A stretch of 64,000 nt of DNA from Actinomadura opuntiae. Lineage in GTDB: Bacteria > Actinomycetota > Actinomycetes > Streptosporangiales > Streptosporangiaceae. Of this stretch, positions 5,459 through 59,942 are shown in pieces. The stretch is taken from positions 124,001-188,000 of the forward strand of contig NZ_JASNWF010000003.1 in the NCBI RefSeq assembly GCF_030283205.1, read 5' to 3'. Within the stretch, counting starts at the first letter, position 1. Each line of letters starts with the position of its first letter. The notes beneath the pieces are model-generated. The model saw only the letters and a list, made by a program, of their open reading frames with translations, searched no databases and was not told the origin of the DNA. The position numbers and the translations under genes are program-made.

Positions 5459-7123
5459 GTGACATCCGTAGCCCTCGGCCCTCGGTACCGCGAGGACACC
5501 CTGCGCGCCCTGGCCGAGACCGAGTTCGACGTCCTGGTCGTCGGCGACGGCATCGTCGGCGCGGGCGCCGCGCTCGACGCGATCTCCCGGGGCCTGTCCG
5601 TCGCCCTGGTGGAGGCGCGCGACTGGGCGGCCGGCACCTCCAGCCGCTCCAGCAAGCTGATCCACGGCGGGCTGCGCTACCTGGAGCAGCGCGACTTCGG
5701 GCTGGTCCGGGAGGCGCTGCGGGAGCGCGGCCTGCTGCTGCACCGGCTCGCGCCGCACCTGGTGCGTCCCGTCCAGTTCCTGTATCCGCTGCGCAACCGG
5801 GTGTGGGAGCGGGCGTACGTCAGCGCGGGCGTCACCTTGTACGACACCATGGGCGGCGCCCGGTCGCTGCCCCGGCACCGGCAGCTCACCCGGCGCGCCG
5901 CGCTGCGGGAGGCGCCGGCCCTGCGCTCGGACGCCCTCGTCGGCGCGATCCAGTACTACGACGCGCAGGTCGACGACGCCCGCTACACGATGATGGTCGC
6001 CCGCACCGCCGCCGAGTACGGCGCCCGGGTCGCCACGCGCGCCGAGGTGACGGGGTTCCTGCGCGAGGGCGAGCGGGTCACCGGCGCGCACGTCGTCGAC
6101 CTGGAGGGCGGTCGGGAGATCACCGTCCGCGCGCGCCGGGTCGTCTGCGCGACCGGCGTGTGGACCGACGGCGCGCAGGCGATGACCGGGTCCCGCGCGG
6201 CGTTCGCGGTGCGCGCGTCCAAGGGCGTCCACCTGGTGGTGCCGCGCGACCGCATCCCGATGAGCACCGGGCTGATCGCCCGGACCGAGCGCAGCGTGCT
6301 GTTCATCATTCCGTGGGGACGGCACTGGCTCGTCGGGACGACCGACACCCCGCACGACGAGGGCCCGGATGAGCCGGTCGCCGACCACACCGACATCGGC
6401 TACCTGCTCGACCAGGTGAACGCGGTGCTGCGCACACCGCTGACCATGGACGACGTCGAGGGCGTGTACGCGGGGCTGCGGCCGCTGCTGTCGGGGAAGA
6501 TCGACGACACCGCCCGCCTCTCCCGCGAGCACGCCGTCGCCGAGCAGGTGCCCGGCCTGGTCGTGGTGACCGGCGGCAAGTTCACCACCTACCGGGTCAT
6601 GGCGCGGGACGCGATCGACGTCGTCGCGGAGGGCCTGGACGAGTCGGTGCCCGCGTCGGTCACCGGACGCCTGCCGATCATGGGCGCGGTCGGCTTCGAG
6701 GTGCTGTGGAACGAGCGGCGCCGGATCGCGGCCCGGTCGGGCCTGCACGTCGCGCGGATCGAGCACCTGCTGCGCCGGTACGGGTCGTGCGCGCAGGACC
6801 TCCTCGCCCTGGTCGCCGGCGACCCGGCGCTCGGCGCCCCGATCCCCGGCGCGGAGGACTACCTGTGCGCCGAGGCCGTCTACGCGGTGACGCACGAGGG
6901 CGCCCTGCACCTGGAGGACGTCCTGGCGCGGCGGCTGCGCGTGTCGATCGAGGCGTGGGACGGCGGCCTCGCCGCGGCGGAGCACGTCGCCGGGCTGATC
7001 GCGCCCCGGCTCGGCTGGTCCTGCGAGGACGCCGCCGACGAGGTCAAGCGGTACGTCCTGCAGATCAGGGCGGAGCGCCGAGACGGTCCGGCCGTCGTGG
7101 AGCCGCCCGTGACGGCCGCCTAG
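5459..7123 (+). CDS. glpD: FAD-dependent glycerol-3-phosphate dehydrogenase
   Basis: A 554-residue flavoprotein that oxidises sn-glycerol 3-phosphate to dihydroxyacetone phosphate at the membrane and passes electrons to quinone. The FAD dinucleotide fold is VVGDGIVGAGAALDA near residues 23-37, followed by the family blocks SSRSSKLIHGGLRYLEQ and GTTDTP, GGKFTTYR and the C-terminal GlpD cap domain. The start is GTG at 5459; an ATG five bases upstream is out of frame and meets a stop at once. It completes the facilitator, kinase, dehydrogenase pathway with the two genes before it. Confidence 0.96.
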   Translation: MTSVALGPRYREDTLRALAETEFDVLVVGDGIVGAGAALDAISRGLSVALVEARDWAAGTSSRSSKLIHGGLRYLEQRDFGLVREALRERGLLLHRLAPHLVRPVQFLYPLRNRVWERAYVSAGVTLYDTMGGARSLPRHRQLTRRAALREAPALRSDALVGAIQYYDAQVDDARYTMMVARTAAEYGARVATRAEVTGFLREGERVTGAHVVDLEGGREITVRARRVVCATGVWTDGAQAMTGSRAAFAVRASKGVHLVVPRDRIPMSTGLIARTERSVLFIIPWGRHWLVGTTDTPHDEGPDEPVADHTDIGYLLDQVNAVLRTPLTMDDVEGVYAGLRPLLSGKIDDTARLSREHAVAEQVPGLVVVTGGKFTTYRVMARDAIDVVAEGLDESVPASVTGRLPIMGAVGFEVLWNERRRIAARSGLHVARIEHLLRRYGSCAQDLLALVAGDPALGAPIPGAEDYLCAEAVYAVTHEGALHLEDVLARRLRVSIEAWDGGLAAAEHVAGLIAPRLGWSCEDAADEVKRYVLQIRAERRDGPAVVEPPVTAA

Positions 7124-7133
7124 GCGGAGTCCT

Positions 7134-7946
7134 TCAGGCGGTGGTGAACGTCGCGGTCATCGCGGTGACGCCGCCGGGCGCCTCGATCGACAGCTCCCCG
7201 TCCGGCGACCCGGCCGCCACGAACGGCTGGTGCGCGTAGACGGGCCTGCGGGCGCGGAACGACAGTTCCGTCACCTTCAGGCCCGCCCTGCGCGGCAGTT
7301 CCAGGCAGAGGATCGCGAGCAGCGGCCCGTGCACGACGAGCCCGCCGTGCCCCTCGACCTCGGTCGCGTACGTCTCGTCCTAGTGGATGCGGTGGGCGTT
7401 GTAGGTGAGCGCGCTGAACCGGAACAGCAGTACCGGGTCGGCGGTCACCGGCAGCGTCCACGGCGTCGTCACGTCGGGCGCCTCGAAGGACACCTCCGGC
7501 GAGCGGGACGCCGCATCGCCGCTGCGGTAGACGAGATCCTGCTCCTCGACCGCGATCTCGGCGCCGTCTCGTAGGAAGGTGTGGCGGACGGTCACGAACA
7601 GCATCTCGCCGCTGCGTCCCTGCTTGACCGCTGTGGAGGCCAACCCCGCGCGTCGCGTGACGGTGTCACCGATGCGCAGCGGTTCGCGGACGCGGAACCG
7701 GCCACCGGCGAACATGCGCCGCCGGTCCGGAATCGGGGGCAGGAAGTGCCCGGCGAGCGGGTGACCGTCGGGGCCGAGTTCGCGCTGCGCGGGCCGTTCG
7801 AGGAAATGCAGCCAGTGCCACAGCGGCGGCAGCTCCGTCCCCGGCGGCTCGGTGTCCAGCACCCCCGCGAGCGCGGCCGACGGTGCCGCGTCGATCACCT
7901 CGGCGGTCTCCACCGGTTCCGGCGACCAGCCGTCGACGTCGATCAT
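7134..7946 (-). pseudogene. FAS1-like / MaoC-type enoyl-CoA hydratase split by an amber codon
   Basis: Read through, this is a complete two-hotdog dehydratase of about 270 residues, the family of mesaconyl-C4-CoA hydratase. The N-terminal part has LWHWLHFLE and GGRFRVREPLRIGDTV; the C-terminal part has VEGHGGLVVHGPL. The two halves are in one frame but separated by a TAG at 7380-7382, at the point in FSALTYNAHRIH-x-D where the family normally has Tyr. A single TAC or TAT to TAG change explains it. ATG 7946 was chosen for its GAGGGG ribosome-binding site. It is last in the run of acyl-CoA genes from fadE30. A base-call error is the main alternative to a true nonsense mutation. Confidence 0.82.
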
Positions 7947-51595: not shown

Positions 51596-52461
51596 TCAAG
51601 CAGCATGTTCGTACTCGTTGAGAATCCCTCTCAGCCGTTGCCTTCTTCGGATGTTCAGGTGAGCGATCTGGTTCGGTTCGGTGATCGCTGAAGGCAGCGG
51701 CTTCAGCGGGCGGGCGTTGGCGATGCCCTGAGGAGGCCGATGCTCGTTGTAGAAGGTCTCGAACTCGCGGAGGCGTGGAGCAGGTGACGCTGGTTCCAGA
51801 TCAGAGTCCGGTCGAGCAGTTCACGGCGGCAGGTCTGTACCCACCGCTCCATCACCGCGTTCATCCTGGGCATCCGCGCCCTGGTCAGCACCACCCGGAT
51901 ATTCGCATCGGCCAAGACGGCGTCGAACAAGTCGGGGAACTTACCATCGCGGTCGCGGATCAGGAACCGTGCCCGGCAGCCGGCGTCCTGCAGATCCATG
52001 ACCAGGTTCCGCGCCCCTTGGGTCACCCACGCTGTGGTCGGGTGGCCGGTGGCGCCCAGAACCCGGACGCGGCGGGTGTGGTGCTCGATGACCTCCAGCA
52101 CGTACATGCGGGCGACGGTGAGAGTCACGGTCTCCAGGAAGTGACACGCCAGCAGCACCTCGGCCTGGGAGCGCAGGAGACCGGCCCAGGTGGTGGCGGA
52201 ACGCTCAGGCGCCGGATCGACGCCAGCGCCGTTGAGGATCCGCCAGACAGTGGAAGGCGCCACCTTGATGCCGAGCACCAGCAACTCGCCGCGCACCCGC
52301 CGGTAGCCCCAGCCCGGGTTCTCCCGCACCAAACGCAGAACCAGCAGCCGGATGGAACGGACGGTCAGTGGCCGGCCTGGCCGCTTGGGTTTCGAGCGGG
52401 CAGCATACCGACCGGCGATCAGGTCTCGGTGCCAACGCAGCACCGTGTCCGGCCGCTCCAC
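51596..52461 (-). pseudogene. IS481/IS3-like transposase, truncated and frameshifted
   Basis: The frame starts inside the HTH region ([17 protein letters not shown]) and carries [34 protein letters not shown] and the rve domain with [15 protein letters not shown] and [16 protein letters not shown]. One base is missing near 51777, after NQRHLLHA; past it the frame continues [20 protein letters not shown] to a terminal NEYEHAA. The first catalytic Asp, expected in ACDFFETVTL, is His here ([10 protein letters not shown]). The N-terminal 60-70 residues are missing. A related remnant lies at 59400-59797. Confidence 0.85.
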
Positions 52462-52588: not shown

Positions 52589-52628
52589 TGGAACGGGCTG
52601 GAACGGGGTCATGGAACCGGGCTGGAAC
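52589..52628 (+). promoter_or_regulatory. Four direct TGGAAC repeats before the RiPP-like operon
   Basis: TGGAAC starts at 52589, 52599, 52612 and 52623, spacings of 10, 13 and 11 bases, so all lie on about one face of the helix. Three of the four sit in a longer GGCTGGAACG. The last ends 65 bases before the first gene. Such phased direct repeats are typical of cooperative activator sites, for example those of SARP-type regulators. Confidence 0.6.
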
Positions 52629-52692
52629 GCCTTCTGGGTGACAGGTCCGGCGGGAAAGGCGCCTCCGGATCGCGAGATCCGTGGAGAGGCTC

Positions 52693-53472
52693 ATGGCGAG
52701 ATCAGCTCGGAACCCGAGCGGGCGGGCCCCGGTGCCGTGCGGCGTGGGTACGGACGCACGGCAGTTCCTGGCCCCGCAGGACGCCACCGATGAAGTCCTG
52801 CGCGTGTTCTATCGGACGATCCGCGCGGGTCAGGAGCGGTTGGCCGGCGGCGGGGGCCCGTTCGGCTTCGATGTCACCGTCGCCCTGCTGGTCGATGACC
52901 TGATCGACGCCTACGGCTGCGACGCGGTCGTCGAGACCGGCTGCCATCTGGGGGACACCGCCGCCTACCTGGGGCGCCGCTACCCCGGCCTGGCGGTCAT
53001 GACCTGCGACATCGATCCCGAGTACGCGCGGTTCACCGCGCACCGGGTGCGCGACCTGCCGAACGTCACGGTCACCTGCCAAGACTCCCCCGCGCTGATC
53101 GCGGACGCGGCCGAGGCGTTCGACCGGCCCTTCTACTTCCTGGACGCGCACTGGGGCGCGTGGCCATTGCCGCGGGAACTGGCGGCGATCCGCGCCGGTG
53201 TCGTCCTGATCGATGACTTCGACATGGGTCACGTACGGTTCGGCCACGACGCCTATGAGGGCGTCTCCTGCGGACCGGACGTTCTCGCGGCGATGACGCC
53301 CCCTCCGGCCCGGTACTGGACTCCCGTGCCCGGAGCCGAGCGCCGGCTGCCATGCCTGCAGGTCGGCCGCCGCGCGGGCGTCGGGCTCTTCGTGGCCGGC
53401 CTGGACGACCGCCCTCTGGACGAGCATCCCGCGCTCACCGGCCACATCCTCACCACCGAGGAGATCCGATGA
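52693..53472 (+). CDS. SAM-dependent methyltransferase-like protein, first gene of the RiPP-like operon
   Basis: A 259-residue protein with a class I methyltransferase fold. Motif I is VVETGCHLGDTAAYLG at residues 79-94, with the SAM-ribose acid near D107 in TCDIDPEYA. Later blocks are PFYFLDAHWGAWPL and VVLIDDFDMGHV, as in macrocin-O-methyltransferase-like proteins. It could methylate the peptide product, but activity is unproven. ATG 52693 is preferred to GTG 52681 because GGAGAGG lies just upstream. Its stop overlaps the next start as ATGA. Confidence 0.75.
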   Translation: MARSARNPSGRAPVPCGVGTDARQFLAPQDATDEVLRVFYRTIRAGQERLAGGGGPFGFDVTVALLVDDLIDAYGCDAVVETGCHLGDTAAYLGRRYPGLAVMTCDIDPEYARFTAHRVRDLPNVTVTCQDSPALIADAAEAFDRPFYFLDAHWGAWPLPRELAAIRAGVVLIDDFDMGHVRFGHDAYEGVSCGPDVLAAMTPPPARYWTPVPGAERRLPCLQVGRRAGVGLFVAGLDDRPLDEHPALTGHILTTEEIR

Positions 53473-54227
53473 GCGGCCCTGCACCCGCGATCACCTGTAC
53501 CGATCCGCTCGCCGACCTCGGCGGCCTGCCCTTCGTGGACGACGGGTTCCGCTCCCGGCGGCTGCTGGCGGCGGCCGCGGCGGCCCGGCACGTCCTGGCC
53601 GAGCGGCAGGGCCGGACCCGGGGGCTGTCGGAGCGGACGCTGGAGGGCTGGCTCGCCCCGGCGCGGGCACTGACGTTGGTCGACGGACCGGCGATGCCCG
53701 CCCGGCCGCTCACCCGGGTCCAGCGCGGCCAGGTCGCGCAGGCCCGCGCAGGCTTGGCCGCCGCCGTCCCGGAGTGGGGGCCGCTGCTGGACCTGCCGGT
53801 CAGGTACGCGCTGCTGCATCCCGACGGCGGTGCGATCTCCGCCTCGTCCAAAGCGTGGCCGCAACACGTCCTGCTGGCCCGCGCCGCCTTCGACGCGCCG
53901 CTGGAGGTCCGCGAGCAGCTCCTGCACGAGCTGGCGCACCAGTGGCTCTACCTGATCGAGGAGGTGTGGCGGCTCCAGCGGCCCGGTGCCGCGCGCCGCA
54001 CGCTTCCCTCGGGCACCGCGGACCGCTCGCCGGCCGAGGTGCTGGGCGCCGCGCACGTCGCGACCGCGCTGACGCGCATGTACCGGGTGTGCGGCGACGC
54101 CCCACCCGGCCGCCTCGCGCACCTGGCGGTGTACCGGGCCGGCTGCCTGGACCTGCTCGACCGGGCCGCCTCTGACCTGACCGACATCGGACGCGCGTTC
54201 GTCCGCCGACTGCAGGAGACCACATGA
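53469..54227 (+). CDS. HExxH-motif peptide-modifying enzyme candidate (peptide beta-hydroxylase type)
   Basis: A 252-residue protein with H153-E-L-A-H157 in LLHELAHQWLY and a later H196 in PAEVLGAAHVATAL. The arrangement, HExxH, then about 30 residues with a basic-Pro segment, then a helix with a His, resembles the HExxH proteins found with RiPP precursors (TIGR04267-type), some shown to be 2-oxoglutarate-dependent peptide beta-hydroxylases. There is no signal peptide or protease pro-region, so an ordinary secreted metalloprotease is unlikely. It is coupled by ATGA overlaps to the genes on both sides, the second being a 2OG oxygenase. Confidence 0.7.
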   Translation: MSGPAPAITCTDPLADLGGLPFVDDGFRSRRLLAAAAAARHVLAERQGRTRGLSERTLEGWLAPARALTLVDGPAMPARPLTRVQRGQVAQARAGLAAAVPEWGPLLDLPVRYALLHPDGGAISASSKAWPQHVLLARAAFDAPLEVREQLLHELAHQWLYLIEEVWRLQRPGAARRTLPSGTADRSPAEVLGAAHVATALTRMYRVCGDAPPGRLAHLAVYRAGCLDLLDRAASDLTDIGRAFVRRLQETT

Positions 54228-54886
54228 CCCTCACAGCACCCAGTCCCGCGCCCGCACGGCGCCCCGACCGGTTCGCGCCGTTCGCGGCCTGGGGCAGCCC
54301 CCTCTACGTCGCCGACATCGCCTCGGCCGGTGAGCTCCTCCCATCGTTCCGTGACCTCATCCTGGAACGCACCGGCACCGATCCCGAGGCGTCGAACTTC
54401 GGGGTCATCACCGCGACGAAGGCCAACCAGGACATCCTGCAGTGGGACGACCCGATCGTGGACTGGTTCAAGGGCCGGATCGTCGACGCCGTCAGCGCGC
54501 TCACCCGCGCCACCCTGGGAGAGGCGGCCGACGAGGTCACCCAGGAGGTGATCGCCGAGGCGTGGACGGTGGTCTACGCCGAGGGCGGCAGCCTGCGCCC
54601 GCACACCCACCACGACTCCGCCTGGTCCGGGGTGTTCTACGTCGAGTCCGGCGACGGCGGCGACACCGGCGAGGCCGGTTACCTGCAGCTGCTGGACCCG
54701 CGGCCCGCCGCGGTGGCCCGCTTCGCCTCCCAGGGCGTCTACCGGGTGGAGCCGGTGCCCGGCCGGATGGTGGCCTTCCCCGGATGGCTGCCGCACTCGG
54801 TGCAGGCCACCCTCACCGGCGGCGGCCGGCGCATCTGCGTCGCCTGGAACGTCGCCTACGACAAGGACTGGGCGGGCATGTCATGA
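54224..54886 (+). CDS. 2OG-Fe(II) oxygenase of the RiPP-like operon
   Basis: A 220-residue double-stranded beta-helix oxygenase of the putative 2OG-Fe(II) type (TIGR02466-like). The iron ligands are visible as H129-x-D131 in RPHTHHDSAWSGVFYV and H191 in PGWLPHSVQA; R202 or R203 in GGGRRICVAWN should bind 2-oxoglutarate. It probably hydroxylates the candidate precursor encoded downstream, perhaps after or before the HExxH enzyme. Start and stop both overlap neighbours as ATGA. Confidence 0.82.
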   Translation: MTLTAPSPAPARRPDRFAPFAAWGSPLYVADIASAGELLPSFRDLILERTGTDPEASNFGVITATKANQDILQWDDPIVDWFKGRIVDAVSALTRATLGEAADEVTQEVIAEAWTVVYAEGGSLRPHTHHDSAWSGVFYVESGDGGDTGEAGYLQLLDPRPAAVARFASQGVYRVEPVPGRMVAFPGWLPHSVQATLTGGGRRICVAWNVAYDKDWAGMS

Positions 54887-55464
54887 CCGCCTCCACGCTC
54901 ATCGCGCCCAGCGCGGCCGACCCCTCGCCCGTCCGGCTGCTGTGGGGAACCAGTGTCCTGGTCGGCAACGTCGACCTGGACGGCATCGTCCGGCCGGATC
55001 TGACGGCCATGGACCCGCCCGGCACCACCGGCGGTGCGGCCTGCCGGGAGATCCCGGCGGACGAGGCCCTGAACGACCCGCGCCGCCTCGCCGCACTGTT
55101 CGCCGAGGCGATGGACGCGGCGGCCGACCGCAAGCGCACCGCCGGCGACGTGGACCTCACCGTGCAGGTCTGGGAGGCGGGCCACGGTGTCCCCGCCGAG
55201 GCCCGGCCCGCCACGTGGGCCGGCTGGTGCTACCTCGCCGCGACCCCGGCGCCCGCCGCCCGCGAGTCGGGCTGCCTGGCCCTGGCCGATCCCCGGCCGG
55301 CCAGCGACCAGACGGCCGTGCCCGGCCTGCCCTGGGGCCGGGCGATCCTGGCCCGGCCCTCGCGCGGCGTCATGGTCGTCGCCCCCGGATGGCTCACCAC
55401 CTCGGTCGTTCCCGTGGAGAACGGCCAGCGGCTCATCGTCGCGATCGCTGCTTCGGCCCGGTAA
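54883..55464 (+). CDS. Oxygenase-like protein without iron ligands (pseudoenzyme paralogue)
   Basis: A 193-residue protein that aligns by pattern with the oxygenase just before it. W112-A-G-W-C-Y-L-A matches WSGVFYV, GCLALADPRPA matches GYLQLLDPRPA, and VVAPGWLTTSVVPV matches VAFPGWLPHSVQAT, with GQRLIVAIA at the end. The iron ligands are lost: A107 and P109 stand at the H-x-D positions and T173 at the distal His. It is probably a non-catalytic partner or peptide-binding subunit, arisen by duplication. Alternatively it binds another ligand. The last base pairs overlap the oxygenase stop. Confidence 0.68.
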   Translation: MTASTLIAPSAADPSPVRLLWGTSVLVGNVDLDGIVRPDLTAMDPPGTTGGAACREIPADEALNDPRRLAALFAEAMDAAADRKRTAGDVDLTVQVWEAGHGVPAEARPATWAGWCYLAATPAPAARESGCLALADPRPASDQTAVPGLPWGRAILARPSRGVMVVAPGWLTTSVVPVENGQRLIVAIAASAR

Positions 55465-55501
55465 ATCCGCCGGGCCGGACGTCCAGGAAAGGAAACGCAC
55501 C

Positions 55502-55720
55502 ATGGCACAGCCCACCGAACGCGCCGCCACCAGCCTGCGGCTGGCCGGCCCGGCGCTCGGCCTCGGCCTCGAGGAGACCGACGTCGACGCCTACCTTGAG
55601 GCCGCCCGCTCAGGCGCCATCATCCCCGAGACCAGCTGCGACAAGGGGATGCAGGACAACCACGCGCTGCGCACCGCGACCAGGACCAGCCTCCCGACCG
55701 CCGAGCTGCAGTCGGCCTGA
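55502..55720 (+). CDS. Candidate RiPP precursor peptide, 72 residues
   Basis: MAQPTERAATSLRLAGPALG, then an acidic helical leader-like stretch (EETDVDAYLEAARSGAI, residues 24-40) and a polar tail IPETSCDKGMQDNHALRTAT to LQSA. There is one Cys (C46), and Asp, Asn, Gln and His (D47, Q51, D52, N53, H54), residues that beta-hydroxylases commonly modify. It has a good AGGAAAGGAAA site, starts 37 bases after the oxygenase-like gene and is followed by a very stable hairpin. No homologue is recognised. The precursor role is inferred from size, composition and context. Confidence 0.65.
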   Translation: MAQPTERAATSLRLAGPALGLGLEETDVDAYLEAARSGAIIPETSCDKGMQDNHALRTATRTSLPTAELQSA

Positions 55721-55737
55721 CCGGCCAGTTCTCCAGC

Positions 55738-55774
55738 GGCCCCGGTCCCATCGCGCGACGATGGGACCGGGGCC
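55738..55774 (+). terminator. 16-bp perfect hairpin after the precursor gene
   Basis: GGCCCCGGTCCCATCG and its exact complement flank the loop CGCGA. It starts 17 bases after the precursor stop and 59 before the exporter. With no U-tract it is probably a partial terminator or 3' protector, raising precursor message relative to the exporter. Confidence 0.78.
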
Positions 55775-55807
55775 CACCCACGTCCGCCGCCCAGAAAGGT
55801 GAACGCC

Positions 55808-55837
55808 GTGAACACCGATCCACGGAGCAGCCGGTGA
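55808..55837 (+). CDS. Nine-codon leader frame coupled to the exporter start
   Basis: GTG AAC ... CGG TGA encodes VNTDPRSSR. It has an AAAGGTG site six bases upstream, and its stop overlaps the exporter's GTG start as GTGA. Translating it would deliver ribosomes to the exporter start, which has no ribosome-binding site of its own. A chance frame is possible. Confidence 0.35.
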   Translation: MNTDPRSSR

Positions 55838-57117
55838 GGATGCCCCGACCCCTCCCCCGCCGACTGGCCGGGGCGATCGCCCTGGCGCGCGAAAACCCGG
55901 CATGGAGACGCTATTTCGCGGCCCGCTGGGTCTCGGTGACCGGTTCGACGGTCGCGCCGATCGCGGCCGCCTACGCCGTGCTGGGCATCGGTGGCGGCGC
56001 CACCGGAATCGGTCTCGTCCTGGTGGGCGGCCCGATCGTGTTCATGGCGCTGTCTCCGGTCGGCGGCGTCGTCGCGGACCGGTATCCGCGCCGGACGGTG
56101 CTGGCCTGCTGCCAGTACGCCAGCGCCGCCGTGCAGGGCACCGTCGCCGTTCTGGTGCTGACCGGATCGGCGTCGGTGACCGCGCTGGCGGCCTTGCAAC
56201 TGCTCCAGGGCGCCGTCACGGCGTTCTTCGGTCCCGCGGCGAGGGGGTTGCTGCCGCAGCTGGTGGACAAGGAAGCACTGCCCGACGCCAACGGGCTGGC
56301 GCAGATCTCCAACAACATGGTCGCGATCGGCGGCCCGCCGATCGCCGGCGTCGTGATCGCCTTCAGCGGCCCGGGCTGGGTGCTGGCGTGGGACGCGGCC
56401 TCGTTCCTGCTGTCGGGGCTGCTGTTCGGCGGGCTGGCGGTGCCGCCCGTCCGGCCGCGTCCCGCCGCCCGGTTCCGCGCCGAGATCGCCGAAGGCTGGC
56501 GGGTGCTCGTCGGCCTGCGCTGGGTCGCGGCCATCGCGCTGCTGTCGGCGACGTCCTCGGCCCTGTGGGCCACCTGCATCACCGTGCTCGGGCCGGTGTG
56601 GGCGGCCGACCGCTATGACGGGGCGGTCACCTGGGGGCTGTTCAGTAGCGCGCTGGGCGCGGGGCTCGCCGCCGGGTCGATCACCGCGGTGCTGGTCCGC
56701 CCGCAACGGCCCGGCCTGATCTGCTGCCTGGTCATGCTGCCCGAGGCGACGCTGCTGGGCGCCATGGCCGCGGGACTGCCGTTCCCGCTTGTCGCCGTCG
56801 CCGCCGTGGTGTGCGGGGCCGGCGGCACGCTGGAGCTGGTCGTGTACCAGTCGGCGCTGGGCGCGTGGCTGCCCGAGGAGCACATCAGCCGCGTCCAGTC
56901 CCTCATCGCCCTCATCGGCACCGTCCTGGTGCCGGTCGCGATGGTCGGCGCGGGCCCGGCCGCCGCGGTCCTGGGCGCGCCGGTCGTCCTCGGCGGCTGT
57001 GCTGTCGTCGCCCTGCTGGCCGCGGCCGCCGCCTACAGCGTCCCCGACGTCCGCGCGCTGCGCGCCACTCCCCCGCCGGTGCCGGTTCCGGCCATGTCCG
57101 ACCGGGCTGCGGGCTGA
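55834..57117 (+). CDS. MFS transporter, probable exporter of the RiPP-like product
   Basis: A 427-residue, 12-helix major facilitator of the MFS_3/enterobactin-exporter-like type. The motif-A loop is GGVVADRYPRRTVL; ARGLLPQLVDKEALPDANGL and GWVLAWDAASFL are family blocks. GTG 55834 overlaps a tiny frame; ATG 55840 two codons later is an alternative start. Position after the precursor suggests export of the product or self-protection. Confidence 0.85.
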   Translation: MRMPRPLPRRLAGAIALARENPAWRRYFAARWVSVTGSTVAPIAAAYAVLGIGGGATGIGLVLVGGPIVFMALSPVGGVVADRYPRRTVLACCQYASAAVQGTVAVLVLTGSASVTALAALQLLQGAVTAFFGPAARGLLPQLVDKEALPDANGLAQISNNMVAIGGPPIAGVVIAFSGPGWVLAWDAASFLLSGLLFGGLAVPPVRPRPAARFRAEIAEGWRVLVGLRWVAAIALLSATSSALWATCITVLGPVWAADRYDGAVTWGLFSSALGAGLAAGSITAVLVRPQRPGLICCLVMLPEATLLGAMAAGLPFPLVAVAAVVCGAGGTLELVVYQSALGAWLPEEHISRVQSLIALIGTVLVPVAMVGAGPAAAVLGAPVVLGGCAVVALLAAAAAYSVPDVRALRATPPPVPVPAMSDRAAG

Positions 57118-57175
57118 ACCCGGGCGGGATCACCGCCGTGCCCTAGACGTCGGCGGTCTCGCACGGGGGTCAGCT

Positions 57176-59197
57176 GTGAGGACATCACCAGGGCCGGGTT
57201 CGGTCGTCATGGGCAGTGGCGACCTGGGCGACGGCGTCGCGGAGAACGGGACGACGGCCTTACTGGCAGCAGAACACGCGCTGCTGGTGGACGGCGACCC
57301 GTGGACGGCCCGCGGCCTCTTCGCGGCGGCCTACGACGAGGCCGAACACAGCGACGACCCGGACACGCTGGCCCGCGCCGCGCTGGGGCTGGGCGGGATC
57401 TGGGCGCAGGAGCAGCGCACGGTGGCGGACGCGGCGGCGACCCGGACCCGGCAACGCGCCGCGCTGCGCCGCCTGGCCCCCCGGTCGGTCCTGGCGCTGC
57501 GGCTGCGCATCAGGCTCACAGCCGAACGGGCGTACCGCACCGGGGAGCCCGGCCCGATCCTCGCGCAGGTCGCCGAGGCCCGCACCGCCGGGGACAGAGT
57601 GGCCAAGGTGGAGGCCCTCACGCTGGCGCACTACTGCGCGATGGGTCCCGGGCACGGGCCGCTGCGACTGGAACTGGCCCAGGAGCTGATCGGCGAGGCG
57701 TCCAGGACGGGCCGTCCCGGCGACCTGCTGGTGGGTCTGCTGCTGCACACCGTCGACCTCTTCCTCGACGCCCACCCGCACGCCGCCCGCAGCCTGGCCG
57801 AACTGCGCGAACACCTCGCGATCCACGAGCACCGGGCCGTCCGGGCCATGGTGGAGGTGATCGAGGTGATGCTGGGCGTCCGCGCGGGCCGGCTCGCGGC
57901 GGCCGGTGCGGCGGCCGACGCGTGGGCCGAGCGCGGCGCCACCGCCGCGGGCGTCAACGCCCGGGCCTGGTACGGCGGGCAGCTCGGCACGATCCGCTGG
58001 TTCCAGGGCCGCATCGCCGAGCTCCGGCCGATGCTGTCGGACCTGGTGGACTCGCCCACGCTCAGCGAGACCGACTACTCCACGTACGCGTCCCTGGCGC
58101 TCGCCGCGGCTTCGGCGGGCGACCGTCCGCTGGCCACGAGCATGCTCGCCCGGCTGCGCGGCCGCGGGCTGGCCGCCCTTCCGCAGGCGGCGACCTGGCT
58201 CCTGACGATGTACTGCGTCACCGAGACGGCCTGGCTGCTCAACGACACCGGCGCCGCGGCCGAGGCGGCGGCTCTGCTGGCGCCCTACGCCCGGCTCCCG
58301 GTGATCGCGGGGCACGGGATCACCTGCCTGGGCTCGGTCCACCACTGCCTGGGGATGGCCGCGCTGACCACCTGCGACACCAGCGCCGCGGTCCGGCACC
58401 TGCGCGCGGCCGTCCAGGACAACATGACACTCGGGCACCGGCCCGCCACCGCGCTCTCGCGTGCCCGCCTCGCCCATGCGCTCGCTCTGCCGGGCCGGTC
58501 CCAGGACCTGGCCGCGGCCGACGCGGAGCTGATCGCCGCCGCCGAGGAGGCCGCGGAACTGCACATGCCGCCGCCCGGCATCGAACGAGGCACCGCGCGC
58601 CTCCGGGACGGCGATGCCGGTGCGCCCGGGCGCGGAACCCCGGCGATGTGCCGGCGCCGCGGCACGCGCTGGGATGTCGAGCTGGGCGGACGGGCCACAA
58701 CCGTCGATCACTGCCTGGGCCTGGAGTACCTGGCGGTACTGATGGCCAATCCGGGCCAGGAGATCCCCGCGGCCGACCTCGCGGCCGGTCACGGCGGGCA
58801 GGACGCGGCACGCCCCGCCACGACCGGCCAACCGCTGCTGGACGAGGCCGCGAAGCGCCAGTACAGGCAACGGCTTGCGGACTTACAGGACCAGGCCGAC
58901 CGATCCGAGATGGCCGGCGACCCGGACCGTGCCGCGGACCTGCAGCGCGAACGGGACTGGCTCATCGCCGAGCTGGCCTCGGCCACCGGGCTCGGCGGCC
59001 GGGCGCGCCGGTTCGCCGACAACGACGAGCGGGCCCGGATCGCCGTGGGGAAGGCCATCCGGCGTGCCCTCGACCGGATCACCGACGCCGACCCGCTCAT
59101 CGGTGCCGAGCTGCGCTCACACGTGCGGACCGGACTGCGATGCTGCTACCTCGGCTCCCGAGCAGAACACCGTCAGCGTGCGGCGCCGAGCCCGTAA
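57176..59197 (+). CDS. TPR-rich regulator-like protein of the RiPP-like cluster
   Basis: About 673 residues, mostly helical TPR-like pairs (LLAAEHALLVDGDPWTARGL, LARAALGLGGIWAQEQ, ATSMLARLRGRGLAALP). The last 120 residues (DEAAKRQYRQRLADLQDQAD, DWLIAELASATGLGGRARRF, ERARIAVGKAIRRALDRITD) match a C-terminal part seen in AAA-ATPase/TPR regulators. No Walker motif or DNA-binding helix-turn-helix is seen, so it lacks the usual ATPase half. The GTG at 57176 follows GGGGGT; ATG 57209 is an alternative. It may regulate the cluster with a partner, or scaffold the enzymes. Confidence 0.68.
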   Translation: MRTSPGPGSVVMGSGDLGDGVAENGTTALLAAEHALLVDGDPWTARGLFAAAYDEAEHSDDPDTLARAALGLGGIWAQEQRTVADAAATRTRQRAALRRLAPRSVLALRLRIRLTAERAYRTGEPGPILAQVAEARTAGDRVAKVEALTLAHYCAMGPGHGPLRLELAQELIGEASRTGRPGDLLVGLLLHTVDLFLDAHPHAARSLAELREHLAIHEHRAVRAMVEVIEVMLGVRAGRLAAAGAAADAWAERGATAAGVNARAWYGGQLGTIRWFQGRIAELRPMLSDLVDSPTLSETDYSTYASLALAAASAGDRPLATSMLARLRGRGLAALPQAATWLLTMYCVTETAWLLNDTGAAAEAAALLAPYARLPVIAGHGITCLGSVHHCLGMAALTTCDTSAAVRHLRAAVQDNMTLGHRPATALSRARLAHALALPGRSQDLAAADAELIAAAEEAAELHMPPPGIERGTARLRDGDAGAPGRGTPAMCRRRGTRWDVELGGRATTVDHCLGLEYLAVLMANPGQEIPAADLAAGHGGQDAARPATTGQPLLDEAAKRQYRQRLADLQDQADRSEMAGDPDRAADLQRERDWLIAELASATGLGGRARRFADNDERARIAVGKAIRRALDRITDADPLIGAELRSHVRTGLRCCYLGSRAEHRQRAAPSP

Positions 59198-59285
59198 CCC
59201 CAGCGCCAGCGGTGACGCCTAGGAACGTGTCCCACGTGGTCTCTCGGTGATCGGCCGGGATGATGTCGGACTGTGGTGTTGTCAG

Positions 59286-59410
59286 AGCCGGCGCGTCGGT
59301 TGGTTCTGATGCACCGGGCCGTGTTGGACGGGTTGGGCGGCTGCGGCATGGTCGACTGGAGAAGCACGATCGTGGACGCAGCCGCCGTCCGGGCGAAGAA
59401 GGGGGTAGCG
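59286..59410 (+). pseudogene. IS5-family transposase fragment
   Basis: About 40 codons read RRLVLMHRAVLDGLGGCGMV, then DWRSTIVDAAAVRAKKG. This is the segment around the first catalytic Asp of an IS5-type transposase (LDW-x-AIVDAxxVRAKKGG in the family). Both ends are cut off. It adjoins the rve transposase fragment on the other strand. Confidence 0.65.
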
Positions 59411-59797
59411 GCTTCAACGGGCGTGCGTTGGCGATGCCCTGGTGAGGTCGATGCTGGTTGAAGAAGGTCTCGAACTCACGGAGGGCGTGGAGCACGTGCC
59501 GCTGGTTCCAGATCAGCGTGCGGTCGAGGAGCTCCCGGCGGCAGGTCTGCACCCACCGCTCCATCACCGCCTTCATCCTGGACATCCGCACCCCAGAAAC
59601 CACCGTCTGGATGCCGGCATCGGCCAGGACGGCGTCGAACAGGCCAGGGAACTTGCCGTCCCGGTCGCGGGTCAGGAACCGTGCCCGGCAACCGGCGTCC
59701 TGAAGGTCCATGACCAGGTTCCGCGCCGCCTGGGTCACCCAAGCTGCGGTGAGGTGGGCGGTGGCGCCCAGAGCCCGGATGCGGCGGGTGTGGTGCT
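59405..59797 (-). pseudogene. IS481/IS3-like transposase, C-terminal half
   Basis: From HHTRRIRALGATAHLTAAWV through [29 protein letters not shown] to HALREFETFFNQHRPHQGIA and PLKPLPPS, where similarity stops. Sequence is close to the remnant at 51596-52461 and in the same orientation. The first catalytic Asp lies in the missing part. Confidence 0.83.
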
Positions 59798-59942
59798 CGA
59801 AGGCGGTCGGGTCGTCCGGATCGTCGTAGTAGGAGAACTCCCCGACCTCGATCAGCGGGGAGGTGACCAGCGGCTTCAGCAGCACCACCCGCGGCTGGCC
59901 GGGCATCGGATGCACCACGGTCGGGTCGGCGGGAGCGGACAT
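59795..59942 (-). pseudogene. Vat/CatB-type O-acetyltransferase, N-terminal fragment fused to transposase
   Basis: The first 49 codons read PADPTVVHPMPGQPRVVLLK, PLVTSPLIEVGEFSYYDD and PDDPTAFE, the start of a left-handed-helix xenobiotic acetyltransferase of the streptogramin/chloramphenicol type. The frame then passes without a stop into transposase at about 59797. The active-site His and hexapeptide repeats are lost. It follows the MFS pump by 49 bases, so the two probably formed one resistance operon. Confidence 0.78.

Follow-up and report, generated by a model that had tools for sequence, protein, structure and literature searches.

In a stretch of 64,000 nucleotides from Actinomadura opuntiae (contig NZ_JASNWF010000003.1 of assembly GCF_030283205.1; hereafter the window, whose numbering is used for its genes), we found a set of genes that recurs in other genomes and that, judged by its sequence, is a five-gene cassette for a ribosomally synthesized and post-translationally modified peptide (RiPP). 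The conserved unit encodes a methyltransferase (MT), a HExxH protein, a 2-oxoglutarate (2OG)-Fe(II) oxygenase (OXY), a ligandless paralogue of OXY and a precursor peptide. An extra copy of dnaE with intact motifs lies within 0.7 kb of the cassette, or of a remnant of it, in 12 of 16 relatives, and an antibiotic directed against DNA replication therefore seems likely. We lean towards the view that the product of this cassette acts on the replicative DNA polymerase DnaE1.

Conservation of the cassette and of its peptide

Scanning the peptide alignment alone against 84,980 species genomes yielded 30 stretches that fit the pattern, nine of which encode the peptide. All nine carry the genes for MT, HExxH protein, OXY and paralogue in the same order directly upstream of the peptide gene. 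They come from Actinomadura, Nonomuraea, Sphaerisporangium, Microbispora and two metagenome-assembled genomes. A preliminary description of the window had listed a methyltransferase-like gene, a HExxH gene, an oxygenase, a ligandless paralogue, a 72-residue peptide, a hairpin and a transporter of the major facilitator superfamily (MFS), and this gene set does exist. Its suggestion that six genes might recur together holds for the five cassette genes (9/9 loci), but not for the MFS transporter and a protein labelled tetratricopeptide repeat (TPR) protein. In the stretches searched, these two were found in 0/16 relatives (0/9 found by the peptide and 0/7 found later) and are ruled out as conserved members. 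Dedicated export of the peptide as a general feature is likewise not borne out, since the MFS gene is local to this strain. An absence of the peptide gene from homologous loci had been named as a reason to drop the idea; it is present in the nine loci, which were themselves found via the peptide.

Further loci were obtained with a profile of the paralogue, which matched in 25 of 341 genomes of the window's family. By neighbourhood, 15 of these contain the cassette or a remnant (the window's own genome, G000, included), eight contain a different pair described below and two (G053 and G375) could not be classed. One more locus, L094, was found outside the family in a sample of 394 genomes of the class; it has all five genes, with the MT gene on the far, downstream side of the peptide gene. 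Together, the 16 relatives considered here are loci L004-L012, L045, L049, L051, L053, L057, L078 and L094. All five genes are present in 14 of them, namely the nine found by the peptide and L045, L049, L051, L057 and L094. The other two are remnants. In L053, the HExxH gene is truncated to its C-terminal end (6185-6298) and the MT gene is missing, while peptide and dnaE are kept. L078 retains only paralogue and peptide, again with dnaE, and an unrelated open reading frame (ORF; 6743-7882), presumably a catalase, takes the place of OXY. Nonomuraea dietziae (L007) has two tandem cassettes with two core types.

A search of about 5.8 billion proteins returned 17 members of the peptide family, including the window peptide. 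In an alignment of 18 peptides (these 17 and one from a relative genome), 23 columns are invariant and lie in the N-terminal part (SL.L..P.LG.GL) and the C-terminal part (T.CDKGMQDN.AL). Position 54 is His in the window and Phe or Tyr in the other aligned peptides, and the peptide of L004, found later, reads QDDY where others have QDN[FYH]. The peptide gene starts 37 bp past the paralogue gene in the window and 25-64 bp past it in relatives. Directly 3' of the paralogue gene we also found divergent cores, SNNCGAVQNNFALT in L049 (closely similar ones in L053 and the second L007 cassette), PGCNSPAVQDDFALD in L051 (L057 has a closely similar one) and GDCGAVQNDLGF in L078. Exactly one Cys is present in all 33 distinct peptides, which represent four core types, and the pattern C-x(3,5)-Q-[DN]-[DN]-[FHYL]-[AG]-[LF] fits 33 of 33, having been derived from the same 33 peptides. 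The peptide matches no Pfam or NCBIfam model. A short precursor gene with conserved leader and core that is co-inherited with modifying enzymes, as the alignments and the 9/9 peptide-found loci indicate, is what characterizes a RiPP system.

Modifying enzymes and their predicted reactions

The HExxH protein scores 60.3 bits against TIGR04267, the model of alpha-ketoglutarate-dependent HExxH-type (aKG-HExxH) peptide beta-hydroxylases, where the cut-off is 40, and all 11 aligned HExxH proteins match this model at E <= 0.001. All 56 aligned HExxH proteins have His153, Glu154, His157 and, further downstream, Glu190, a putative metal ligand. The HExxH profile matches the ChlH chain in the PDB (E 6.4e-5), and the AF2 model (pLDDT 90.3) has its best PDB match in 8s5f, the HExxH domain of ChlBH (E 1.8e-6). 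From sequence and model, the protein is predicted to be an aKG-HExxH-type peptide beta-hydroxylase. An ordinary HExxH metallopeptidase, an outcome that would have spoken against the preliminary description, was rejected, since a SprT-like match appeared only at E 0.16 and no peptidase family was above its cut-off. Hydroxylation by enzymes of the aKG-HExxH type has been described for Asp, His and Gln residues in RiPP precursors, and in a variant for Asn; two of these enzymes, in addition, cut the precursor at an Ala that comes after the hydroxylated residues (PMC12636437).

OXY scores 59.3 bits against PF13759 (cut-off 27) and 61.9 bits against TIGR02466, 0.6 bits short of the cut-off of 62.5, and is thus a member by Pfam and not by TIGR02466. 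It shares sequence and ligand pattern with these putative 2OG-Fe(II) oxygenases, whose solved relatives are 2rg4 and 3bvc. The ligands H129-x-D131 and H191, as well as R203, are invariant in 11 of 11 aligned sequences; as had been noted from the window, the iron ligands are present in OXY and missing from the paralogue. The paralogue is related to the OXY profile with an hhalign probability of 97.4%, and in this alignment Ala107, Pro109, Thr173 and Ile185 occupy the places of the HxD motif, His191 and Arg203. Across 71 aligned paralogue rows, the His of HxD occurs in 0, the Asp in 1, the distal His in 4 and two or more ligands in 0, while the Arg position holds V, T, I, L or A. Its AF2 model (pLDDT 83.8) matches 2rg4 in Foldseek (E 8.4e-6), followed by P. 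putida P4H and PHD2, with moderate TM-scores of about 0.4-0.55. The paralogue matches no Pfam or NCBIfam model; it has the predicted double-stranded beta-helix fold of 2OG oxygenases and fails to retain the iron ligands.

OXY and paralogue also occur as another pair, behind a ferritin-like gene, in eight loci of the window's family or genus (L050, L054, L055, L056, L058, L059, L060 and L052, the last cut by the contig start). The ferritin-like gene is seen in seven of the eight, those whose contig reaches that far, and the one tested, in L050, matches PF00210. Neither the HExxH gene nor the MT gene nor the peptide was found in these eight loci, and ferritin itself is a candidate substrate of this pair.

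Catechol O-methyltransferase chains are matched by the MT profile, which was built from 11 homologues (best E 4.2e-6); against Pfam Methyltransf_25 the protein scores 22.9 bits, under the cut-off of 27, and it stays below Pfam cut-offs in general. Its gene is among those present at 9/9 peptide-found loci. Pfam and NCBIfam detected no lanthipeptide, YcaO or radical S-adenosylmethionine (SAM) domain in the seven window proteins, in agreement with the preliminary description, and RiPPs of these kinds were rejected. The flank genes scanned include a single radical SAM gene, that of Nonomuraea dietziae (L007 14828-16186), about 4.6 kb downstream of the double cassette.

From these similarities we infer a series of reactions in the following order. 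The leader (approximately residues 1-43, with LRL..P.LG.GL) would bring the peptide to the enzymes, and the ligandless paralogue, whose gene overlaps that of OXY and with which OXY likely works, would hold the peptide or stabilise OXY. Side chains within C-x(3,5)-Q-[DN]-[DN]-[FHYL]-[AG]-[LF] would be hydroxylated by the aKG-HExxH enzyme and OXY; the modified residue, and the action of one or both oxygenases on it, are part of this proposal. The catechol-O-methyltransferase-like enzyme would then methylate a new hydroxyl group or the lone Cys, O-methylation being probable, and the core would be released by a protease encoded elsewhere.

In a different outcome, oxidative cleavage at the conserved Ala would be the main activity of the HExxH enzyme; as with PosC and PflC, it would leave a C-terminal amide, and the product would end near residue 53 or 54. 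PosC and PflC hydroxylate Gln, or Asn in a variant, and cleave at the Ala that comes next (PMC12636437); in our family, all 20 aligned peptides have Ala55 directly behind Q-[DN]-[DN]-x. However, the Leu after Ala55 is invariant in the same 20 peptides, which a discarded tail need not be, and L078 has Gly in place of Ala55, although PosC also cut partly at Gly. We regard oxidative cleavage as the main reaction as unlikely.

Spare polymerase genes as a pointer to a possible target

In six of the nine peptide-found loci, the gene beyond the peptide gene encodes a protein of 1183-1212 residues. Two of these were tested with Pfam and proved to be the DNA polymerase III alpha subunit, and similarity identified the others as such. 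Of the 15 family genomes with cassette or remnant, 12 have a DnaE1-like gene at most 0.7 kb from the paralogue gene, and in one (G269) it is about 17.5 kb away. No extra DnaE1-like gene was found in the remaining two, the window's G000 and G378; the assembly of the latter is 84% complete and might have missed a spare copy. The third DnaE fragment of G378 is DnaE2-like, with best matches of about 30-34% identity to reference proteins from each of the three groups. In L005, dnaE was looked for only within 6 kb downstream of the cassette.

The linked copies keep the Asp motifs, which we take to be catalytic, and occur in both orientations, five co-directional and seven convergent with the cassette. 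In the tree, 16 main DnaE1 proteins form one clade (support 99/98) and 24 spare copies, 12 linked and 12 unlinked, form another; a thirteenth unlinked copy (L087) sits on a long branch beside the main clade. We rejected the linked dnaE as the housekeeping copy, since a separate main dnaE was found elsewhere in 10 of the 12 linked genomes, being broken in G339 and not found in G104. With an extra dnaE by the cluster and the main dnaE elsewhere, these relatives show the arrangement looked for in target duplication. As a control, dnaE was found in none of the eight ferritin-type loci in the stretch examined.

Two genomes with the cassette seem to have no intact main DnaE1. In G104 (95% complete, three contigs), only the linked DnaE and one DnaE2-like copy were found. 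In G339, the main DnaE1 is fragmented (L096 3095-5809), its frame changes and about 107, 41 and 69 residues have no match, whereas two spare copies have open reading frames. Provided that the assemblies are correct, chromosome replication can be carried out by the spare enzyme.

Other genes are found where dnaE is missing. An orthologous GNAT acetyltransferase (53-79% mutual identity) occurs in L005, L012 and L094, three of the four relatives without adjacent dnaE, beside the peptide gene in L005 and L012 and after the MT gene in L094. It was absent from 17 loci of 13 other genomes and from the window, and all three loci have the Lys48-containing core type. The fourth relative is Nonomuraea dietziae (L007), with a spare dnaE about 17.5 kb off. 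The window has neither dnaE nor GNAT at its cassette, and an MFS transporter stands in that place. Alternative immunity genes would give such an either-or pattern of dnaE, GNAT and MFS; the GNAT could alternatively be a tailoring enzyme, and the pfl cluster likewise has a GNAT (PMC12636437). In a tree of the cassettes, that of the window groups with dnaE-linked ones with 100% support. The backbone of this tree is weak, with several supports below 70, and would allow different numbers of dnaE/GNAT switches.

We infer from this pattern both the target and the immunity. The mature peptide would hit DnaE1, and the producer would be protected by the spare DnaE (12/16 relatives), by the GNAT (3/16) and possibly, in the window, by the MFS pump.

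Several observations weigh against an antibiotic that acts on DnaE1. The window's own cassette has no dnaE, and the three DnaE genes of G000 are all on other contigs, none of them spare-type by score. Spare DnaE of the same clade was found away from any cassette in three of six cassette-less genomes checked (G002, G006 and G012) and in five genomes with only the ferritin-type pair; the lineage is therefore not solely a cassette gene. Non-producers might use these unlinked copies for resistance, or the copies may have no connection with the cassette. Shared descent accounts for part of the linkage, the linked copies falling in three clades, and the remnants L053 and L078 keep dnaE next to an incomplete set of enzymes. 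Main and linked spare DnaE do not differ in the motif GQDSLF, presumably the clamp-binding site of DnaE, so that resistance is less likely to reside in the clamp interface. Lastly, the flank genes covered, namely the recurrent ones and a part of the others, include no cluster-encoded leader protease or peptide exporter. Such genes are not obligatory for RiPP clusters.

An alternative is that the RiPP cassette is real and the linked dnaE is an accessory DnaE that is co-inherited or co-regulated with it, the peptide acting elsewhere, for example as a signal or a metal ligand. The spare copies far from cassettes and in cassette-less genomes, often by a LysR gene, would fit, as would the lack of adjacent dnaE in four of 16 relatives and in the window. 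Yet without selection it is hard to see why the genes adjoin each other within 0.7 kb in 12 of 15 family genomes, with either orientation and with members of three DnaE clades. Moreover, GNAT or MFS stands in the same place in four of the five loci without dnaE (window included), and two genomes appear to rely on the spare DnaE. We therefore consider a mere accessory polymerase rather unlikely.

The lack of a recurrent exporter or protease would also suit a peptide that stays in the cell as a small protein, marked by the enzymes and regulating the polymerase, for instance via a Q-x-x-hydrophobic motif like the clamp-binding motif of DnaE. The core Q-[DN]-[DN]-[FHYL]-[AG]-[LF] resembles GQDSLF, again if we are right to take the latter as a clamp motif, and we note this resemblance only as a lead. 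By contrast, the leader/core layout with one modification cassette per peptide, the paralogous cassettes of L007 with different cores and the GNAT and MFS alternatives fit a secreted toxic product better, and an intracellular role appears quite improbable to us.

Some further features were noted around the spare genes. Cassette-remote spare dnaE often adjoins a gene for a LysR-type regulator, as if induced on demand; this regulator forms a cluster of eight loci, one of them checked by Pfam, and the loci include L079, L081, L082, L084, L086, L089 and L091. A small protein overlaps the end of the spare dnaE in L009 and L078, where it is DUF6300 (PF19817), and a similar one does so in L090 (Table 1).

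The window locus, related systems and significance

The coordinates of the window genes, read from the sequence, and of recurrent neighbours in the relatives are collected in Table 1. Seven genes on the + strand span 52693-59197; the start at 52589 that had been given for the locus falls upstream of both possible starts of the first gene. Three ATGA overlaps join the first four genes, as previously described. Purine-rich stretches resembling ribosome sites precede the MT, HExxH, OXY, peptide and MFS genes, and no clear one was seen in the window 5' of the paralogue gene or the 662-residue protein gene. The 16-bp hairpin was confirmed (arms 55738-55753 and 55759-55774, z = -4.2, 0 of 200 shuffles equally stable). 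When 16 other cassettes were folded and judged by eye, without shuffles, most had a hairpin of another sequence 3' of the peptide gene, L006 being an exception.

Table 1. Positions of cassette genes and neighbouring features (window numbering unless a locus is named)
Feature	Position	Strand	Remarks
Class I (catechol O-methyltransferase-like) SAM methyltransferase, MT; cassette gene 1	52693..53472	+	Alternative GTG start at 52681
Predicted aKG-HExxH-type peptide hydroxylase	53469..54227	+	252 aa, stand-alone; TIGR04267
2OG-Fe(II) oxygenase (OXY), H129-x-D131...H191 and R203	54224..54886	+	PF13759
Ligandless OXY paralogue (OXYlike), proposed non-catalytic partner	54883..55464	+	Profile and model similarity
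Precursor peptide, 72 aa; leader with LRL..P.LG.GL, core TSCDKGMQDNHALR	55502..55720	+	Conserved family
16-bp hairpin 3' of the peptide gene, terminator- or stabiliser-like, no T run	55738..55774	+	Folding against shuffles
MFS efflux-type transporter, strain-local; candidate export or immunity gene	55834..57117	+	PF07690, 84.5 bits
662-aa protein, no family assigned (earlier labelled TPR), strain-local	57209..59197	+	No Pfam or NCBIfam match at E <= 1
Transposase-like ORF, left island edge	51703..52461	-	PF13565, 31.8 bits, below cut-off 33.7
Integrase-core ORF (insertion sequence remnant), right island edge	59097..59942	-	PF13683, 32.2 bits, cut-off 26.5
Divergent 470-524-aa protein upstream of the cassette	L004 5543-7075; L005 3149-4609; L006 5458-7032; L007 2100-3512; L010 5651-7099
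Small protein after spare dnaE	L078 6091-6444; L090 12665-13015; L009 13960-14325

The label TPR for the 662-residue protein is unsupported by Pfam and NCBIfam. This gene and the MFS gene are part of the island of this strain and not of the RiPP system. Two insertion sequence remnants bracket the cassette, the MFS gene and the 662-residue protein gene like a composite element, and within them lies a direct repeat of 397 bp in the same orientation (about 51693-52088 and 59404-59800, 86.7% identity). The window copy therefore looks mobile or recently rearranged. Carriage by a plasmid was rejected, the paralogue having no match in 72,556 plasmid records, and so was carriage by a phage, with no match of the HExxH protein in 50,697 phage records. 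In the relatives, a divergent protein of 470-524 residues, weakly helix-turn-helix- or TPR-like in some, is encoded upstream of the cassette in five of the nine peptide-found loci and may be a cassette regulator. A like-sized upstream protein in L009 and L011 does not cluster with this group.

The usual setting of TIGR04267 is, as we assume, the FxSxx-COOH (FxsA) systems, which have an FxsA-type precursor and a radical SAM partner, whereas our peptide has no NCBIfam match and none of the seven proteins is a radical SAM enzyme. The cassette shares with ChlBH, BpmH and PflC/PosC (TIGR04267, IPR026337; PMC12636437) the family cut-off, the predicted fold (8s5f) and an adjoining small precursor. 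Unlike in those systems, the 252-residue enzyme stands alone without a radical SAM, MNIO or nitroreductase partner in the cassette, its partners being a TIGR02466-like OXY, an inactive-looking paralogue and MT, and the peptide core is another one. In particular, the pfl and pos clusters (PMC12636437) have an MNIO-nitroreductase partner and an NHLP leader; no such domain is present in the seven proteins of the locus, and the peptide matches no Pfam or NCBIfam model.

A 2OG oxygenase in a RiPP cluster is known from the graspetide corallotide, and a co-occurring protein needed for activity from the graspetide rosaritide (PMC13097080). Here, in contrast, there is no graspetide synthetase and the proposed partner is a degenerate copy of OXY itself. 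The extra dnaE directly by a biosynthetic cluster in an actinomycete resembles narR/ngnU, a dnaE homologue beside the nargenicin cluster whose decoy role is stated to be postulated (PMC8922275). Nargenicin is a polyketide, whereas the present cluster is ribosomal, GNAT or MFS replaces dnaE in some loci and the window has no dnaE.

In the literature searched, outside which most subscription papers fall, we found no description of the core motif, the family accessions or HExxH with RiPP in this combination, and no named RiPP class surfaced, as the preliminary description had supposed. Nor did we find, among the papers listed, one that links a RiPP to DnaE as target. Overall, what stands of the earlier interpretation is a new RiPP-type cassette and the match to the peptide hydroxylase family, while membership of the MFS and TPR genes and the export step do not.

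In its boldest form, which we put forward tentatively and consider somewhat doubtful, our proposal would be a new RiPP class, in which an aKG-HExxH enzyme works with a 2OG oxygenase paired with its dead paralogue, and the first ribosomal antibiotic against DnaE1, perhaps mimicking a Q-x-x-hydrophobic clamp motif. A spare resistant polymerase would protect the producer and would have taken over replication in some lineages.

If our reading is true, the cassette would represent an unnamed RiPP class with a predicted target, something that to our knowledge few genome-mined peptides have. As an antibiotic target, DnaE is attractive and has been little used; in the literature searched, nargenicin was the only natural product that we found with this pattern. 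With the linked spare polymerase, the target hypothesis can be tested in vitro. Moreover, a 2OG oxygenase paired with a degenerate copy of itself would be a new control of peptide hydroxylation, and the genomes in which DnaE1 seems to have been replaced by the spare copy would offer a natural test of polymerase exchange.

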